A stretch of 28,758 nt of DNA, taken from positions 1 to 28,758 of the IMG/VR virus record IMGVR_UViG_3300020406_000002; one strand, written 5' to 3'. A program made the position numbers and the translations under genes. The notes below the pieces were generated by a model. That model was not told the DNA's origin, made no database searches, and was given only the letters and a program-made list of their open reading frames with translations. Each line of letters begins with the position of its first letter. The first letter of the stretch is position 1. The DNA is from a virus. This document shows positions 4,034-25,289 of the stretch, piece by piece.

Positions 4034-4873
4034 ATGGCAAATGAAACAACCAGTAGTACCATTTCGGAACTCTATACCGAAATCGTAGCAGAAGCATTGT
4101 TTGTGGCAAGCGAACAGTCAATCATGCGTAACCTAGTCAGAAACTACACTATTGCAGGTGGCGGTAAGTCTGTGGAAGTACCAATTTATGCAACTGTGTC
4201 AGCTTCAGCCGTAAACGAAGCAACTGACTTGTCAAACACAGCGGTCAACCCAACTTCTGTTACAATTACAGCTAGTGAAGTAGGTGTAATGACCACATTG
4301 ACCGACTTAGCAAGAAACTCAGCATCACGAAATGTTGCAGGTGACATTGGTAGATTATTCGGTGAAGCTATCGCAAGAAAAGTTGATGCAGACTTATCAG
4401 CATTGTTCACAGGCTTTTCTACAGAAAAAGCAGGTGGAGCAGGTCAAGAACTCACAGTGCAAGACATCTTTGAAGCAAGTGCAGAACTAAGAACAGCAAA
4501 CGCACCTGCACCATATTACGGAGTCTTTCACCCAAAGCAGATTTTCAACGTCAAAAAGTCTTTAACAAACACATTTGTGGGTAGAGATACCGAATTGTCA
4601 AACGAAGCCATGCGAAGTGGTTTTGTAGGAACTATAGCAGGGGTTCAAATCTTTGAATCTTCAAATATTTCTGTAGATGGTTCTGATGACTCTATCGGTG
4701 GTGTATTCTCTCAAGACGCTCTTGCTTTAGCAATGATGCAAGACCTAAAGCTTGAAACTCAAAGAGATGCTTCATTAAGAGCAGATGAAATTGTTGCTAC
4801 TGCTGTTTATGGAGTTAGTGAAATTCATGATACCTATGGAGTTAAGTTAACTGCTGACACACTAGCTACATAA
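4034..4873 (+). CDS. Major capsid protein (HK97 fold)
   Basis: A 279-residue protein without Cys, rich in Ala/Thr/Ser. The start MANETTSSTISELYTEIVAE, the early loop with EVPIYATV, the acidic/aliphatic middle (DADLSALFTGF, FEASAELRTANAP), a YYGVFHPKQIF segment and a C-terminal beta strand region fit HK97-fold coat proteins of marine siphophages. The gene follows the scaffold, has a strong binding site (AAAGGAG) and is followed at once by a strong terminator, as expected for the most abundant late product. The N-terminal delta domain seen in HK97 is absent, in keeping with a separate scaffold. Confidence 0.92.
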   Translation: MANETTSSTISELYTEIVAEALFVASEQSIMRNLVRNYTIAGGGKSVEVPIYATVSASAVNEATDLSNTAVNPTSVTITASEVGVMTTLTDLARNSASRNVAGDIGRLFGEAIARKVDADLSALFTGFSTEKAGGAGQELTVQDIFEASAELRTANAPAPYYGVFHPKQIFNVKKSLTNTFVGRDTELSNEAMRSGFVGTIAGVQIFESSNISVDGSDDSIGGVFSQDALALAMMQDLKLETQRDASLRADEIVATAVYGVSEIHDTYGVKLTADTLAT

Positions 4874-4880
4874 AAACTAT

Positions 4881-4907
4881 GGGGGTGGGAAACTACCCCC
4901 TTTTTTT
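4881..4907 (+). terminator. Rho-independent terminator after the capsid gene
   Basis: An 8-bp stem (GGGGGTGG with CTACCCCC, one G-T pair) closes a GAAA loop and is followed by seven T. It lies 8 bases after the capsid stop and just before the next gene's binding site (AAGGA). It would lower expression of the neck and tail genes relative to capsid protein; read-through must occur unless another promoter lies close by. Confidence 0.92.
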
Positions 4908-4915
4908 AAGGAATT

Positions 4916-5122
4916 ATGACAATGGAAATGGTAAAGCTTGTTAAAGGCGATAGGGTAATTGAAAGACGCAAAGTAGATTACGAAAACAATCAAAACATTT
5001 GGCATTTACGAGGTTGGAAGCTAGACGATGGTAAGCCAAAAGCACAACCAAAAGTAGAACCAAAGCCAGTAATGGAAGAAGCACCAAAGCCTAAGAAAAC
5101 CGAAACAAAAAAGGCTGAATAA
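4916..5122 (+). CDS. Small K/P-tailed protein of unknown function (possible paralogue of 6508 gene)
   Basis: A 68-residue protein starting just after the capsid terminator, with AAGGA upstream. A short folded-looking segment (VKLVKGDRVIERRKVDYE...GWKLDDGKP) is followed by a long Lys/Pro/Glu tail. The same plan, KGD...GYKL plus a K/P/E tail, appears in the 51-residue gene at 6508. Its stop overlaps the next ATG (TAATG). It may be a neck or capsid-associated peptide, judged only from position. Confidence 0.7.
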   Translation: MTMEMVKLVKGDRVIERRKVDYENNQNIWHLRGWKLDDGKPKAQPKVEPKPVMEEAPKPKKTETKKAE

Positions 5123-19601: not shown

Positions 19602-19750
19602 ATGGGTTTACAACCACAGCTACTATTTCTGAACTCATAGACAAAAGACCCATAGGACGTAAGCGGAAACGTACCAGAAAGAACAAAATGCCCTTCAAAG
19701 GCAATTTAAAAGCCGTACAGCGTCTGTTGCGTGTCAAAAGGGTAAAGTAG
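19598..19750 (+). CDS. 50-residue basic protein at the end of the rightward late block
   Basis: ATGA overlap with the preceding gene; the frame ends with TAG at 19748-19750, 11 bases before the convergent VRR-NUC gene. Sequence: MNGFTTTATISELIDKRPIG, then RKRKRTRKNKMPFKGNL and QRLLRVKRVK. Arg/Lys content is very high. It is the last plus-strand gene of the late block. No terminator hairpin fits in the 11-base gap. Function unknown. Confidence 0.6.
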   Translation: MNGFTTTATISELIDKRPIGRKRKRTRKNKMPFKGNLKAVQRLLRVKRVK

Positions 19751-19761
19751 CAGGGAAATAG

Positions 19762-20124
19762 TTAAGACCGCACAGGGACGTTTATTTCGATTATCTCTTT
19801 TATTTGGTTTAAACATTCAGTAACCCCACCCTTTACAATAAAATGAGGTGTACCCATAGCTTTTGATTGCACCGCCCAAAGCTTTTGAGCGTCCGACAAC
19901 CTACCTTTTTCATTCTTCAACTCAATATACAAAACCCTTCCTTCTGGATATTCTACAATAATATCTGGACAACCCGACTTCAAACCCATCTTCTTCAGCT
20001 TTAAATGATAGCCAATAGACTTCTGACCTTCATTCGGTACATGGAAGTGTCGAAAATGGTAGTATTTACACAAATAATTTAGGTAGTCGTTGCAAGATAT
20101 TTGTATGTCTGATTCTTTCGTCAT
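19762..20124 (-). CDS. VRR-NUC domain nuclease, the only minus-strand gene
   Basis: A 120-residue protein made almost entirely of a VRR-NUC fold, a PD-(D/E)XK nuclease type often linked to replication and Holliday-junction-like substrates. The core is KMGLKSGCPDIIVEY with Asp54, then LYIELKNEKGRLSDAQ with Glu68, Lys70 and Gln80; the FHVPNEGQKS stretch is typical too. It faces left, away from the early operon, and converges with the late mini-genes. No Shine-Dalgarno sequence precedes its ATG: the leader on its strand ends in a C-run (ACCCCC). It may be translated from a short or leaderless message. A GGGGGT motif covers the start codon. Confidence 0.88.
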   Translation of the reverse strand: MTKESDIQISCNDYLNYLCKYYHFRHFHVPNEGQKSIGYHLKLKKMGLKSGCPDIIVEYPEGRVLYIELKNEKGRLSDAQKLWAVQSKAMGTPHFIVKGGVTECLNQIKEIIEINVPVRS

Positions 20125-20186
20125 GGGGGTAAAAATTTAAGGTTTAATGAGATTGCACCCATTTAGTTTATAAAATTTACCCCCAT
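20123..20186. promoter_or_regulatory. Inverted pair of ATGGGGGTAAA boxes upstream of the VRR-NUC gene (operator candidate)
   Basis: ATGGGGGTAAA at 20123-20133 covers the VRR-NUC start codon, and its exact reverse complement TTTACCCCCAT is at 20176-20186. A third box, ATGGGGGT, is at 20289-20296 and touches the early promoter's -35. On the minus strand the 20176-20186 copy would fall between weak promoter-like elements TTGTAT (20197-20192) and TTTATA (20174-20169), 17 bases apart. Two or three equal sites across a divergent promoter region fit a repressor, but no factor is identified. Confidence 0.5.
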
Positions 20187-20201
20187 TTGCTATACAAAAC
20201 G

Positions 20202-20212
20202 AATTGGAGTTC
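20202..20212 (+). repeat. AATTGGAGTTC element, copy 1
   Basis: One of four exact copies in the genome. Unlike the others it is not followed by a gene start; downstream is only a TTG-begun frame of nine codons, ending at 20246. It may mark an upstream leader transcript or be a decayed duplicate of the early gene start at 20350. Confidence 0.7.
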
Positions 20213-20217
20213 ATTTG

Positions 20218-20243
20218 TATATTCCGCGTATTGAAGGAATATA
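20218..20243. repeat. Dyad TATATTCC / GGAATATA in the control region
   Basis: Perfect 8-base arms at 20218-20225 and 20236-20243 with a 10-base centre. It lies between the VRR-NUC gene and the early promoter. It could be an operator or a small RNA hairpin; no T-run follows, so a terminator is unlikely. Confidence 0.5.
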
Positions 20244-20295
20244 AAAAAGATAGCAAAAAAAACACCAAACCACAATCTTTTTTACCTTATGGGGG

Positions 20296-20324
20296 TTGAC
20301 TATTCAATAAACCTAGCTTAAAAT
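20296..20324 (+). promoter_or_regulatory. Early promoter, sigma-70 type
   Basis: TTGACT (20296-20301), a 17-base spacer, and TAAAAT (20319-20324): the best match to a host sigma-70 promoter that I found. The start would be near 20331, leaving a leader of about 35 bases before the ATG at 20367. The ATGGGGGT box abuts the -35 and the ACCTAG / CTAGGT dyad spans the -10, so it is probably regulated. Confidence 0.8.
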
Positions 20325-20330
20325 CTAGGT
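20311..20330. promoter_or_regulatory. ACCTAG-N8-CTAGGT dyad over the early -10 box
   Basis: Inverted 6-base arms at 20311-20316 and 20325-20330 flank the -10 box of the early promoter. A protein bound here would block RNA polymerase. Whether it is an operator or chance is open; arms are short but placed symmetrically around the -10. Confidence 0.5.
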
Positions 20331-20349
20331 TATTAATGATAATAATAAT

Positions 20350-20360
20350 AATTGGAGTTC
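20350..20360 (+). repeat. AATTGGAGTTC element, copy 2 (ribosome binding site of first early gene)
   Basis: Exact copy of the 11-base element, six bases before ATG 20367. The GGAG core acts as Shine-Dalgarno. The flanking bases are conserved too, beyond what ribosome binding needs. Confidence 0.75.
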
Positions 20361-20366
20361 AAAAAA

Positions 20367-21056
20367 ATGTGTAAGCAAGCAGAAAAAATCTGGTACACCG
20401 CGATGGATGATACCACCCCTTATTCTGGTGAAGTGGAAATCGACACTTCTAACAAATCTAAAAAAGCCTATGGTATTGGTCATTGTTGGAAGTGTCACAA
20501 TGGCAATGGTATATTCTGGAAAAAAACTTGGAATGGTGCATTCCCAGATACTTGTTGGTCTTGTAATGGAACTGGCAAGGGTAAGGTAAGGCTATACACC
20601 CTCAAGCAAGTTCAAGGGCAAATAAAGAGGGCAGAGAAGAACCACATTCTTTATGTCAACAAAGTTGCACTAGGCAATGAAATCAACGCTCTTAAAAACA
20701 TTGCTTACAACTACTCTGAAAAGGGTGTTGCACAAAGAGCAAAAAGATTAGCTTGGAAAAAAGACAAGATAGTTACAAAAAATAGTTCAGAGTTTGTTGG
20801 ACAAGTAAAGGACAGGGGTACATTTGACCTAACCCTTACTTTCAGAAAAGGCTTTGATACAGACTTTGGTGTAAGCTTCTTGAACACTCTCAAAGATGCT
20901 CAAGGCAACGTCTTTACCTATTGGGGTAATTCTTTTCTTGATGTTGAAGTAGATACCACCATCACAGTTAAGGCAACCATCAAAGACCACAGGGAATATG
21001 ATGGAACTAAGCAGACAGTAATCAACAGACCTAAAATCATTGAAGGGGTAAGATAA
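20367..21056 (+). CDS. CxxCxGxG zinc / OB-like protein, first gene of the early operon
   Basis: A 229-residue protein. ATG 20367 was chosen because the AATTGGAGTTC element lies just before it; a TTG at 20352 would fall inside that element. Residues 40-47 (CWKCHNGNG) and 63-70 (CWSCNGTG) form two CxxCxGxG knuckles like the DnaJ zinc centre. Residues about 135-229 (FVGQVKDRGTFDLTLTF, VFTYWGNSFLDVEVDTTITV, EYDGTKQTVINRP) resemble an OB-like beta barrel seen in single-strand DNA-binding phage proteins. Being the first early gene, it may act in DNA handling or host take-over. Neither activity can be proven here. Confidence 0.7.
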   Translation: MCKQAEKIWYTAMDDTTPYSGEVEIDTSNKSKKAYGIGHCWKCHNGNGIFWKKTWNGAFPDTCWSCNGTGKGKVRLYTLKQVQGQIKRAEKNHILYVNKVALGNEINALKNIAYNYSEKGVAQRAKRLAWKKDKIVTKNSSEFVGQVKDRGTFDLTLTFRKGFDTDFGVSFLNTLKDAQGNVFTYWGNSFLDVEVDTTITVKATIKDHREYDGTKQTVINRPKIIEGVR

Positions 21057-21322
21057 TGATAGAACAACCAACAAAAATAGGGAACAAAACGCTATACAAC
21101 GTAAGAGTCCTAAATATGTCAGTTGCTAAACATTATGGATTAGTCAAAGAATATTGTGAGATTGTTTCAAAAGCTAGGGAAACCAACACCGAAGATTTAG
21201 AGAAGAATGGGGTGCAAGCAGAACTTACTTTGTACTTCTCAGTTAAAAAACATTTAGACCAGTTGGTTTTACAAAAGCTTATGAAAAACAAAATACAAAA
21301 GTTTGGAGCAAGTAACAGATGA
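21056..21322 (+). CDS. Small early protein of unknown function
   Basis: An 88-residue protein starting in TAATG overlap with the zinc/OB gene. Sequence features: NVRVLNMSVAKHYGLVKEYC in the first half, a polar loop, then LTLYFSVKKHLDQLVLQKLM and a basic end. No known motif, signal or membrane helix is evident. The stop overlaps the following 29-codon membrane peptide by ATGA. Confidence 0.62.
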   Translation: MIEQPTKIGNKTLYNVRVLNMSVAKHYGLVKEYCEIVSKARETNTEDLEKNGVQAELTLYFSVKKHLDQLVLQKLMKNKIQKFGASNR

Positions 21323-21408: not shown

Positions 21409-21429
21409 ACATAACCAAAAAAATAATAT
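21400..21429 (+). promoter_or_regulatory. Candidate promoter for the lipoprotein gene
   Basis: TTTACA (21400-21405), 18 bases, TAATAT (21424-21429). The -35 matches the sigma-70 consensus in 5 of 6 positions, the -10 in 4 of 6. It lies at the end of the micro-peptide gene and just before the lipoprotein start, in one of the few early gaps. Confidence 0.45.
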
Positions 21430-21442
21430 AGGTTTTAAATTG

Positions 21443-21453
21443 AATTGGAGTTC
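21443..21453 (+). repeat. AATTGGAGTTC element, copy 3 (before lipoprotein gene)
   Basis: Exact copy of the 11-base element ending two bases before ATG 21456. It contains the ribosome binding site GGAG and forms part of the same early gene-start family as 20350 and 24409. Confidence 0.75.
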
Positions 21454-21455
21454 GC

Positions 21456-21767
21456 ATGAAGAAATCAAAACTAATTTTCACTTTATTGTTAGCTGTTGTT
21501 ATTGGTGGTTGTTCATCAATGCCAATAGTTGATAGTAGAGGAAAATCGTCAGCCAATATAAAGGGTGACATGAACCGCTTTCACGATGATTATTATACCT
21601 GTAAAAGCTTAGTACAAGACCAGACAAGTTACGTTTGGGATAAGAGCAAAGCAGTCTATAATGGTCTAAGGTGGCGTGTTTTGTGGCTCAGTCCTAAAGC
21701 AAATACCAGAAAAGATTTTATCAATCGGTGTTTAGAGGGTCGGGGTTATAACGTAATTAATAAATAA
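21456..21767 (+). CDS. Phage lipoprotein (possible superinfection exclusion or moron)
   Basis: A 103-residue protein with a lipoprotein signal peptide: basic MKKSK, hydrophobic IFTLLLAVVIGG, lipobox IGGC with Cys19. Ser at +2 after Cys favours transport to the outer membrane. The mature part holds Cys at two places (YYTCKSLV, INRCLEGRG), which could form a disulphide, and aromatic segments (WDKSKAVYNGLRWRVLWLS). It has a private promoter candidate and its own AATTGGAGTTC start element among replication genes, as expected for a moron. Phage lipoproteins such as Cor and Llp block receptors; whether this one does is inference. Confidence 0.78.
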   Translation: MKKSKLIFTLLLAVVIGGCSSMPIVDSRGKSSANIKGDMNRFHDDYYTCKSLVQDQTSYVWDKSKAVYNGLRWRVLWLSPKANTRKDFINRCLEGRGYNVINK

Positions 21768-23128: not shown

Positions 23129-23347
23129 ATGCTAAAAAAATCACAAAAGGAAAATATCCTTGAATACCTTCAAATAGGTAACAAAATAACCCCATTGGAA
23201 GCGTTGTATAAGTTTGGTTCTTTTAGATTAAGTGCCGTTATCTTTGAGTTAAGACAAGAGGGTTACAACATCATCACGCACAAGAAAAAAGTCGATGAAA
23301 AAACCTTTGCTGAATACGAACTTGTAAAGGAGAAAAGCAATGGTTGA
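23129..23347 (+). CDS. Winged-helix DNA-binding protein (HTH_39-like)
   Basis: A 72-residue protein: KKSQKENILEYLQIGNKITP, LEALYKFGSFRLSAVIFEL and RQEGYNIITHKKKV. The order Q..IL..L..G..ITPLEA...FG..RLSA.I.ELR..GY.I is the phage helix-turn-helix family HTH_39. AGGAA before the ATG is a good binding site. It is the only evident DNA-binding regulator in the early block, so it may act on the control region at 20123-20330 or help the replication protein; both ideas are inference. Confidence 0.8.
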   Translation: MLKKSQKENILEYLQIGNKITPLEALYKFGSFRLSAVIFELRQEGYNIITHKKKVDEKTFAEYELVKEKSNG

Positions 23348-23588: not shown

Positions 23589-24361
23589 GGGAACATTTTG
23601 AAAAATTTGATTTGTTCCCTTTATCCTTTAGTCATCTTAATGAGTTCGCTTTTTATCGTGAACGATGGGCGTTAAGGCGAATATTTGGGTATGAGTTCCC
23701 AACAAGTGCGTCAGCCGTCAGAGGGCAATCTGTGGAGAGTGGCATTAATATGTTTCTCAATGGAATACCGCTAGAAGAAGCCAAAGAAAAAATGGTGTCT
23801 GAGTATGATGCAAACTGTTCTAGGATAAATGACCCAAAGATAGAGGATGAACGAAATAACTTAGTGCCATTACTACAGCTAGGTACTAAGGAGTTTCAGA
23901 AATATGCTTATACATGGAATCTATTGACCTATCAAAAAAAGGTAGAATTAGAGATAGATACCATACCTTTTGTGGGTTATACCGACTTTCATTTTGAAGA
24001 TAAAAAGACCAAAGAAGATTTTTATATCGACTTGAAAACGTCAAAAAGCCTACCCCAAAGAGTCAGTATTTCCCATGCAATGCAACAATCCATCTACCAA
24101 AAAGCGACAAATGCCAAGCAAATATTGTGGTATCTAAAGAACCCTACAAAGACAAAAGATGCTGAATTTATTGCTATGTCGTTAGATGATTATGGTGAGC
24201 CTATGCGGATATGTAAGCATATTCTAAAGGTGATGGGTAATTACCTAAAAACTGTTGATACCCAAGATGACGTTAGAAACAGTTTAGTGCCTAATCCTGA
24301 TAATTGGATATGGAAAGAACCTACAGTATTGCAAGCTAGGAAGGAAGTTTGGGGATATTAA
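23585..24361 (+). CDS. PD-(D/E)XK nuclease, RecB/Cas4-like
   Basis: A 258-residue enzyme. The N-terminus (FPLSFSHLNEFAFYRERWAL) and AVRGQSVESGINMFLNG resemble the PDDEXK_1 nuclease entry. The catalytic site is visible: VGYTDF with Asp134, then YIDLKTSKSLP with Asp149 and Lys151, and AMQQSIYQKAT with the Q-x-x-x-Y of RecB-like nucleases. No Cys cluster for an iron-sulphur centre is present, unlike typical Cas4. A role in recombination or host DNA degradation is likely from the family. It ends the first early segment; a strong hairpin follows. Confidence 0.84.
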   Translation: MREHFEKFDLFPLSFSHLNEFAFYRERWALRRIFGYEFPTSASAVRGQSVESGINMFLNGIPLEEAKEKMVSEYDANCSRINDPKIEDERNNLVPLLQLGTKEFQKYAYTWNLLTYQKKVELEIDTIPFVGYTDFHFEDKKTKEDFYIDLKTSKSLPQRVSISHAMQQSIYQKATNAKQILWYLKNPTKTKDAEFIAMSLDDYGEPMRICKHILKVMGNYLKTVDTQDDVRNSLVPNPDNWIWKEPTVLQARKEVWGY

Positions 24362-24367
24362 CCAAAA

Positions 24368-24397
24368 AACCCCTTTAGGTTTCTACTTAGAGGGGTT
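24368..24397. promoter_or_regulatory. Strong intergenic hairpin before the replication gene
   Basis: Arms AACCCCTTTAGG and CTTAGAGGGGTT pair over 12 bases (two G-T pairs) around a 6-base loop. On the plus strand no T-run follows. On the minus strand the stem would be followed by several T (complement of the A-run at 24364-24369), so it has terminator form for leftward transcription, where no gene is known. It may also be an mRNA processing or stability element for the plus strand. A TACAAT -10-like box overlaps its right edge. Confidence 0.6.
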
Positions 24398-24408
24398 ACA
24401 ATCAACTA

Positions 24409-24419
24409 AATTGGAGTTC
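24409..24419 (+). repeat. AATTGGAGTTC element, copy 4 (before replication gene)
   Basis: Exact copy of the 11-base element, three bases before ATG 24423. It includes the GGAG binding site. Confidence 0.75.
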
Positions 24420-24422
24420 AAT

Positions 24423-25289
24423 ATGATTATACACGAAAATTCAAAACCAACGCAGAAAATGAAAGCGTGGTACTTATTCACAGAAGATTTTATTGCAGGT
24501 ACGCAACACCTTTCAGCACAGTCACTTGGCATATACATAAGGCTATTATGTTTTAACTGGAACAAGCGTTGTGCAGGTATACCAAAAGATAAGGAAACAC
24601 AGTATAGGATAGCCAGTTGTTTTAGTAATTCTGAATGTAGTAGCTGTGATAACGTCATAAAAGAGTTCTTTGTTCTTGTTAATGACCACTACCAAAACGA
24701 AAGACAACTACAAGAATATCTCTATATTTCAAGAAGAATGGAAGCATCAAAAGAGAATGGTAAGCTTGGTGGTAGACCAAAAAAACCTAGCACAGAACCT
24801 AACACTAACCTAGATAAAACCCCCCTACCCCTTACCCCTACCACTACCCCTAAAACAACCCCAGTAAGTTATGCACCCTTATTTTTGAAGTTTTGGGACA
24901 AAGTAAACAATAAGGTTTCAAAAGGGACTGCGGAGAAAAACTATTTGAAGCTAGAAGACGAATGGATAGAGAAGCCAGAAGAACTAGCAGAGATGTATAA
25001 CAAATATTATAAATCTGTAGAGGATAAAAAGTTCGCTAAACAACCTGCATATTGGCTTTCAGCGAAAAAGTATGAAGATGAAAAACCAAAAGCACCAAGT
25101 GCAGAAAAGGTTGATATGTATGCCTTTAGACTCAAAGACTACAAAAAGGTTATACAAGAAAAAAAGTCTAGAAATTATGTTTCTCAATGGGCGGTACACA
25201 ATTTATGGGAAGTTGAAAAAGCTATCAAGGAGAGTGAGTTTACCAAAGAGGAAGCAGAAACATATCTTGATTTAAAAGGATGGTTATAA
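24423..25289 (+). CDS. Replication initiation / helicase-loader protein, DUF1376-like
   Basis: A 288-residue protein. ATG 24423 follows the AATTGGAGTTC element; the upstream TTG lies within it. Residues about 12-105 match DUF1376: MKAWYLFTEDFIAGTQHLSA, LGIYIRLLCFNWNKRCAGIP and YISRRMEASKENGKLGGRPK. Residues about 120-150 are a Thr/Pro linker encoded by C-rich repeats. Residues 150-288 form a second helical domain (FLKFWDKVNNKVSKG, YNKYYKSVEDKKFAKQP, YWLSAKKYED) of the kind that binds helicase. Proteins of this type recruit the host replicative helicase, which agrees with the lack of phage polymerase or helicase genes. TAATG coupling to the next gene. Confidence 0.76.
   Translation: MIIHENSKPTQKMKAWYLFTEDFIAGTQHLSAQSLGIYIRLLCFNWNKRCAGIPKDKETQYRIASCFSNSECSSCDNVIKEFFVLVNDHYQNERQLQEYLYISRRMEASKENGKLGGRPKKPSTEPNTNLDKTPLPLTPTTTPKTTPVSYAPLFLKFWDKVNNKVSKGTAEKNYLKLEDEWIEKPEELAEMYNKYYKSVEDKKFAKQPAYWLSAKKYEDEKPKAPSAEKVDMYAFRLKDYKKVIQEKKSRNYVSQWAVHNLWEVEKAIKESEFTKEEAETYLDLKGWL
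24785..24860 (+). repeat. C-rich repeat tract inside the replication gene (candidate origin)
   Basis: TACCCCT occurs three times (24826-24832, 24833-24839, 24845-24851), and related ACCTAA/ACCTAG strings lie just upstream. The tract encodes the Thr/Pro linker of the replication protein. Origins with iterons inside the initiator gene are known from lambda O. The repeats could equally reflect low-complexity coding, so this is a candidate. Confidence 0.4.

Follow-up and report, generated by a model that had tools for sequence, protein, structure and literature searches.

The divergent region between the minus-strand VRR-NUC gene and the first early gene of this virus carries several copies of a short box, ATGGGGGT, and raises the question of whether these boxes are sites for a regulatory protein or parts of a control element of another kind. 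The window analyzed here is the entire virus record of 28,758 nucleotides; it has a 55-base terminal repeat, and it is therefore probably the complete, circularly permuted genome of a phage. The nearest named phages by large terminase are Pelagibacter phages (56-57% identity). A search of bacterial and archaeal genomes for the VRR-NUC family, as host gene or prophage, found nothing, and a tRNA search of the window found none. The original prediction was that the boxes, an early promoter and a dyad over its -10 element form a compact two-way switch, with the protein encoded at 23129 as a candidate ligand. The elements concerned are the following.

19762-20124, minus strand: VRR-NUC endonuclease gene, 120 aa (Pfam PF08774, E 8.6e-08)
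20123-20133, plus strand, and 20176-20186, minus strand: exact 11-mer ATGGGGGTAAA
20123 (plus), 20179 (minus), 20289 (plus), 4879 (plus) and 5761 (plus): copies of ATGGGGGT
20296-20324, plus strand: first early promoter, TTGACT-N17-TAAAAT
20310-20331, plus strand: 22-bp operator-like palindrome AACCTAG-N8-CTAGGTT, AACCTAGCTTAAAATCTAGGTT, covering the -10 element

This anatomy was confirmed. The box at 20123, which overlaps the VRR-NUC start at 20124, its inverse at 20176 and the box at 20289 are all present; the early promoter is near consensus (10/12 matches), and the ACCTAG/CTAGGT dyad does lie across its -10. Furthermore, ATGGGGGT is enriched, with five copies against 0.52 expected, a number reached in none of 100 shuffles, and three of the five fall within the divergent region, as would suit DNA-binding sites for a phage or host regulator. 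A fourth copy, at 4879-4886, directly follows gene 4034-4873 and lies ahead of the next start at 4916.

For comparison, relatives were collected by protein search, using the first early protein (15 loci) and VRR-NUC (three sets of at most 80 each). This gave 111 leaders including the window, some of which share contigs. We took out five that repeat one contig before making the loop/RBS, tree, RBS-window, promoter, operator, accessibility and fold counts. At least 200 nt of sequence was available for 103 of the 111, 86 of these being distinct, and 43 representative leaders, the window among them, were picked by k-mer similarity. Two different VRR-NUC copies (L052 and L060) lie near opposite ends of one 30.3-kb contig, reflecting either a true second copy or an assembly effect.

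The boxes did not behave as protein sites in these relatives. The exact box is preserved in only 6 of the 43 representatives and the third box, at 20289, in 4; the first two boxes are the arms of an RNA hairpin (hairpin C), and these arms vary in step so that pairing is maintained. We therefore rejected the reading of ATGGGGGT as a set of binding sites, which we now regard as highly improbable; what stands of the proposed switch is the divergent control region and its operator-like dyad. Repeated boxes in divergent phage regions may, as a caution, be RNA arms rather than protein sites.

Hairpin C is conserved through pairing, by compensatory and G·U changes, and not through sequence. Complementary arms are found in nearly all distinct leaders, with the 3′ arm ending at the VRR-NUC start codon, which in the window it overlaps. 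Co-varying arm pairs include GGGGGTAAA/TTTACCCCC, GGGGTCTGT/ACAGACCC, GGGGATA/TATCCCC and GGGAGTAG/GCTCCC, and three loci found later have GGGCTGT/ACAGCCC. For 36 distinct pairs of arms (L106 and L115 excluded, L062 set by hand), counting the first 11 base pairs of each gave 348 Watson-Crick pairs, 37 G·U pairs as read on the minus strand, 3 A·C and 8 others. An A·C on the minus strand is a G·U on the plus strand, and the excess of 37 over 3 (sign test, p 2e-08 with relatedness ignored) places hairpin C in a minus-strand RNA. Within the loop of hairpin C, some leaders (L050, L052, L054, L062, L073-L079, L083, L085, L087, L089 and others) contain a strongly conserved insert of about 50 nt that includes the 27-mer TATAAATACTGCGATTTATTTAAGTAC; close relatives whose loop is tiny (L051, L055-L061, L088) lack it. 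IMG/VR contains the 27-mer exactly 21 times, each time in a separate stretch of DNA, and the five inspected all lie in such leaders.

The minus-strand leader has the following predicted parts, 5′ to 3′ in the RNA.

20270-20275, minus strand: predicted -35, TTGTGG, of the promoter of the leader RNA and VRR-NUC, at 17-bp spacing to the -10
20247-20252, minus strand: predicted -10, TATCTT, from the same spacing pattern
20218-20243, minus strand: hairpin A, TATATTCC/GGAATATA, from the minus-strand minimum-energy fold
20191-20221, minus strand: hairpin B, arms 20191-20198 and 20214-20221, from stem variation, loop match, coevolution and accessibility
20202-20212, minus strand: antisense of the early RBS in the hairpin B loop, GAACTCCAATT
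20123-20186, minus strand: hairpin C, arms 20176-20186 and 20123-20133, from complementarity and the strand test
19689-19703, minus strand: terminator-like hairpin and T run downstream of VRR-NUC, a weak candidate (1 found versus 0.7 expected)

The pattern TTGNNN-N17-TANNNH occurs on the minus strand of 35 of the 43 representative leaders, versus a mean of 7.1 and a maximum of 14 in shuffles. This spacing pattern was chosen after the sequences had been seen; among spacings from 11 to 23, none besides 17 exceeds 17 leaders, and generic promoter scoring gave mostly chance matches. From the position of the -10 we infer a transcript start near 20240. The leader also folds more stably as minus-strand RNA, with a z-score of -3.92 versus -2.09 for the plus strand and the lower value on the minus strand in 39 of 41 leaders.

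The putative main regulatory element of the region, overlooked in the original prediction along with the minus-strand promoter, is hairpin B, which lies directly upstream of hairpin C in the RNA. Read antisense, its loop gives AATTGGAGTTC, a sequence that serves three early genes as ribosome-binding site (RBS; at 20350, 21443 and 24409). When the window was scanned without bias for hairpin loops having 9 nt in common with at least two gene starts, hairpin B and no other was returned. The sites on the early side are listed here together with the associated operator-like copies.

20350-20360, plus strand: RBS AATTGGAGTTC of early gene 20367-21056, the first putative target
21443-21453, plus strand: RBS AATTGGAGTTC of gene 21456-21767, putative target
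24409-24419, plus strand: RBS AATTGGAGTTC of the DUF1376 replication-type gene 24423-25289, putative target
21036-21055, plus strand: second-type RBS gaaggggtaagata of gene 21056-21322, resembling the hairpin C arm (suggestive only)
21413-21434, plus strand: degenerate operator copy (11/14) ahead of the second target
24360-24381, plus strand: degenerate operator copy (11/14) ahead of the third target, overlapping a terminator-like repeat

The stem of hairpin B varies widely while the core of its loop does not. Stems include TATACAAA/TTTGTATA in the window, TAGCCTA/TAGGCTA (L080), GCAC/GTGC (L081), TATCTCG/CGAGGTA (L100) and GTTTATTA/TAATGAAC (L108), and the UCCAA loop core is constant in all 22 aligned cases (the stem of L069 was set by hand for the loop alignment and for the wobble count). 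Wobble pairs in this stem are neutral as to strand, with 4 G·U and 3 A·C in 17 outer stems. The stem is absent from the minimum-energy fold of the window, although the loop is mostly open. The unpaired probability of the 9-mer complementary to the RBS averages 0.69 versus 0.37 elsewhere in the leader, and the 9-mer is the more open part in 40 of 41 leaders.

The loop and the ribosome-binding sites of the same genome change together. Of 92 loci with RBSs, 85 have at least one early RBS with the trinucleotide that follows GGAG in the antisense reading of the loop, and in 83 of the 92, the window counted, this is the commonest RBS trinucleotide. By loop class, agreement is 52/53 for TTC, 22/23 for ATC, 5/5 for CAT, 3/3 for AAT, 2/2 for TAT and 1/1 for TCC; the AAC class gives 0/5, where GGAGAA is shared and the third base differs. 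Three later leaders obtained through a different DNA pattern (L134, L137 and L139) all have a TTC loop, and in two of them the first early RBS is also TTC. The VRR-NUC tree requires at least 9 changes of loop class and at least 13 of RBS class. Paired switches are seen between neighbors, L123 (TAT loop, TAT RBSs) lying beside L125 (TTC, TTC) and L124 (TCC, TCC) beside L122 (TTC, TTC), and the CAT class arises in two separate groups. In the five independent contrasts involving TTC, the RBS follows the loop in 4.5 on average and never goes in the opposite direction, although, with p between 0.06 and 0.125, five contrasts do not suffice for significance. The RNA loop and its putative targets show compensatory change, as expected of trans-acting antisense regulation of RBSs.

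A genome's own B element matches 112 of 546 RBS windows versus none of 507 windows taken 40-60 nt upstream; the reverse strand of the element matches none of the 546, and B elements from other genomes, many of them of the same class, match 2909 of 21840. The duplex of loop and RBS is predicted at -14.9 kcal/mol for own targets versus -9.5 kcal/mol when the RBSs come from genomes of a different loop class, a comparison that describes rather than tests the match because the own targets were selected by it. A test of mismatch direction (21 wobble-compatible transitions versus 1 incompatible) was left unused; C-to-A differences equal C-to-T ones in frequency, and composition may account for the bias.

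The other two hairpins may contribute to RBS recognition as well. Own RBSs frequently share 8-10 nt with an arm of hairpin C, and a second type of RBS, AGGGGGTAAACTAATG-like and similar to this arm, is common to the internal early genes (21056 and its relatives). Arm and RBS classes agree only in part: 27/33 for GGTAA, 6/12 for GATAA, 2/5 for GGCAA and, among rarer classes, 1/4 for GGCAT, 0/1 for AGCAA and 1/1 for AGTAA. Matches of hairpin C are at an ordinary level, 9 of 567 in the own genome versus 422 of 23814 in other genomes, which form a mixed control and match as well as the own genome does. Against this, hairpin C is kept as a suggestive candidate for a second anti-RBS element. Hairpin A matches own RBSs over at least 8 nt in 11 of 546 RBS windows versus 0 of 507 control windows (208 of 21840 with other genomes), a weak indication that it is possibly a third.

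The genes that match the loop also share a DNA element. The AACCTAG-N8-CTAGGTT dyad keeps at least 12 of its 14 positions in all 43 representative leaders and is probably an operator, to judge from its placement and conservation. Copies scoring at least 10/14 stand ahead of 44 of the 60 later early genes that have the loop trinucleotide in their RBS versus 16 of 447 other early genes, which argues that this RBS class marks the first genes of units under the putative operator's control. The protein at 23129 does match a DNA-binding family (HTH_39, E 2e-10) and is present in all 20 loci whose early side extends for at least 5.5 kb; seven of ten other early proteins tried are equally universal, so it is one candidate among several for operator binding. 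Pfam has no family matching the first early protein. Its gene, 20367-21056, is a swapped cassette, present in the window's version in 2 of the same 20 loci, and the control region flanking it is conserved. The RBS of this gene is preceded, in the window and most relatives, by a 5′ UTR of TAA repeats (TAATAATAATAAT at 20340-20352).

These observations establish the RNA structure, its strand, its conservation and the joint change of loop and RBS, and provide the basis for a model of control by a leader RNA, which we consider reasonably likely. The minus-strand promoter in the divergent region would drive an RNA that serves as 5′ leader to the VRR-NUC mRNA and that may also occur free, as an antisense RNA; it would fold as hairpins A, B and C. 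The B loop would then offer the complement of an extended Shine-Dalgarno region common to the first genes of several early units. Pairing of loop and RBS would block ribosome binding and lower the early proteins, including the replication-initiation-type protein, so that the translation of the phage's own early units is silenced. In cis, hairpin C would shut the VRR-NUC start codon and the nuclease would be poorly translated. With AACC...GGTT operators over or near the promoters of the target units, transcriptional and RNA-level control would be combined.

The coevolution of loop and RBS taken alone would also fit a recognizer that both share. On the plus strand the loop has the sequence of the RBS, and the plus-strand fold predicted for the window contains both hairpin C and hairpin B; read-through RNA from late genes could present a GGAG loop as a decoy to a translational repressor, or to an antisense RNA encoded elsewhere, that recognizes early RBSs. 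The strand evidence makes such a decoy quite unlikely: although the wobbles of hairpin B are neutral, those of hairpin C follow the minus strand, minus-strand folds exceed the stability predicted from composition while plus-strand folds do so less, and the minus-strand promoter is conserved. The pairing could also work in the other direction, early mRNAs binding the VRR-NUC leader and tuning the nuclease to the level of early transcript. In nearly all leaders the VRR-NUC start codon is shut within hairpin C, and the leader therefore appears built for translational control in cis; however, hairpins B and C are separate, binding at B would not obviously open C, and the B loop matches several mRNAs exactly at their predicted ribosome sites, as silencing would require. 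We regard regulation of the leader by its partners as unlikely.

Alternatively, the RBS-like loop may be a leftover from gene swapping, since the first early gene is exchanged among relatives and operator and RBS modules recur, as they would if identical RBS and promoter modules served as recombination linkers in a variable early region. However, a co-varying stem around the loop would not be expected to persist in such a leftover, and the leader that holds the loop also has a conserved promoter and a hairpin at the start codon; this explanation is very unlikely. We therefore retain silencing of the early units by the B loop as the preferred reading.

The closest parallel in kind is the c4 RNA of phages P1 and P7, in which hairpin-loop sequences pair around the RBS of a phage mRNA (PMC12197685). 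The RNA proposed here is similar to c4 (RF01695) in being a phage RNA whose loop sequence is complementary to phage mRNA around the RBS. A search with Rfam at the gathering score, the c4 model included, gave no match in the window or in 14 related loci; the one weak match, to a yeast snoRNA (E 0.41), was dismissed as chance. The c4 RNA reportedly lies upstream of ant, the antirepressor gene, on the same transcript and has one mRNA target. That layout, on the same strand and just upstream of an antirepressor target, is not found here; unlike c4, the RNA is divergent and is placed by the strand tests on the opposite strand, where it would lead into a nuclease gene, and it matches more than one mRNA. 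In view of the missing Rfam match and of the differences in strand, position and target number, we regard the hairpin RNA as a relative in kind of c4 and not as a c4 RNA.

Other antisense systems share single features with it. The sar RNA of P22 and the OOP RNA of lambda are phage antisense RNAs that limit phage gene expression; they act as cis-antisense RNAs with long complementarity to overlapping genes. The RNA described here is likewise phage encoded, but a loop of about 9-12 nt would pair with unlinked RBSs. Some bacterial sRNAs, the alphaproteobacterial CCUCC-loop sRNAs for instance, carry CU-rich anti-Shine-Dalgarno loops in which CUCC masks the GGAG of target RBSs. Hairpin B resembles them in opposing CUCC to GGAG from a hairpin loop; in contrast, it is encoded by a phage, and its loop flanks vary jointly with those of the RBSs in its own genome. 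A search of openly accessible literature found no description of an RNA of this kind.

If the model is right, an uncultured phage family controls several early units post-transcriptionally through one short RNA loop, and RNA and targets evolve as a matched set. Natural families in which a regulator loop and several targets have repeatedly changed together are rare, and the specificity of loop for RBS, a possible immunity code between phages, would be directly testable. We speculate, as a rather doubtful extension, that the loop trinucleotide is a specificity code, such that the RNA of each lineage would silence early genes wherever the RBS extension is the same, in its own phage as well as in others. 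A joint switch of loop and RBS would then found a new immunity or incompatibility group, comparable to the heteroimmunity of P1 and P7, and one leader might silence several RBS classes simultaneously through hairpins A, B and C.

Two of the relatives by terminase, HTVC111P and DSL-LC06, were searched for a similar hairpin; a comparable one is absent from DSL-LC06, and HTVC111P has one weak candidate (30109-30136, two starts). Among the collected leaders, the B loop is absent from L106, L107, L115 and L116. Short complementarity to its own RBSs (AGGTTAAC) is present in L106, and in L115, by eye, GGAGTAA and GGTTAAC are complementary to its own RBSs with one wobble pair each.
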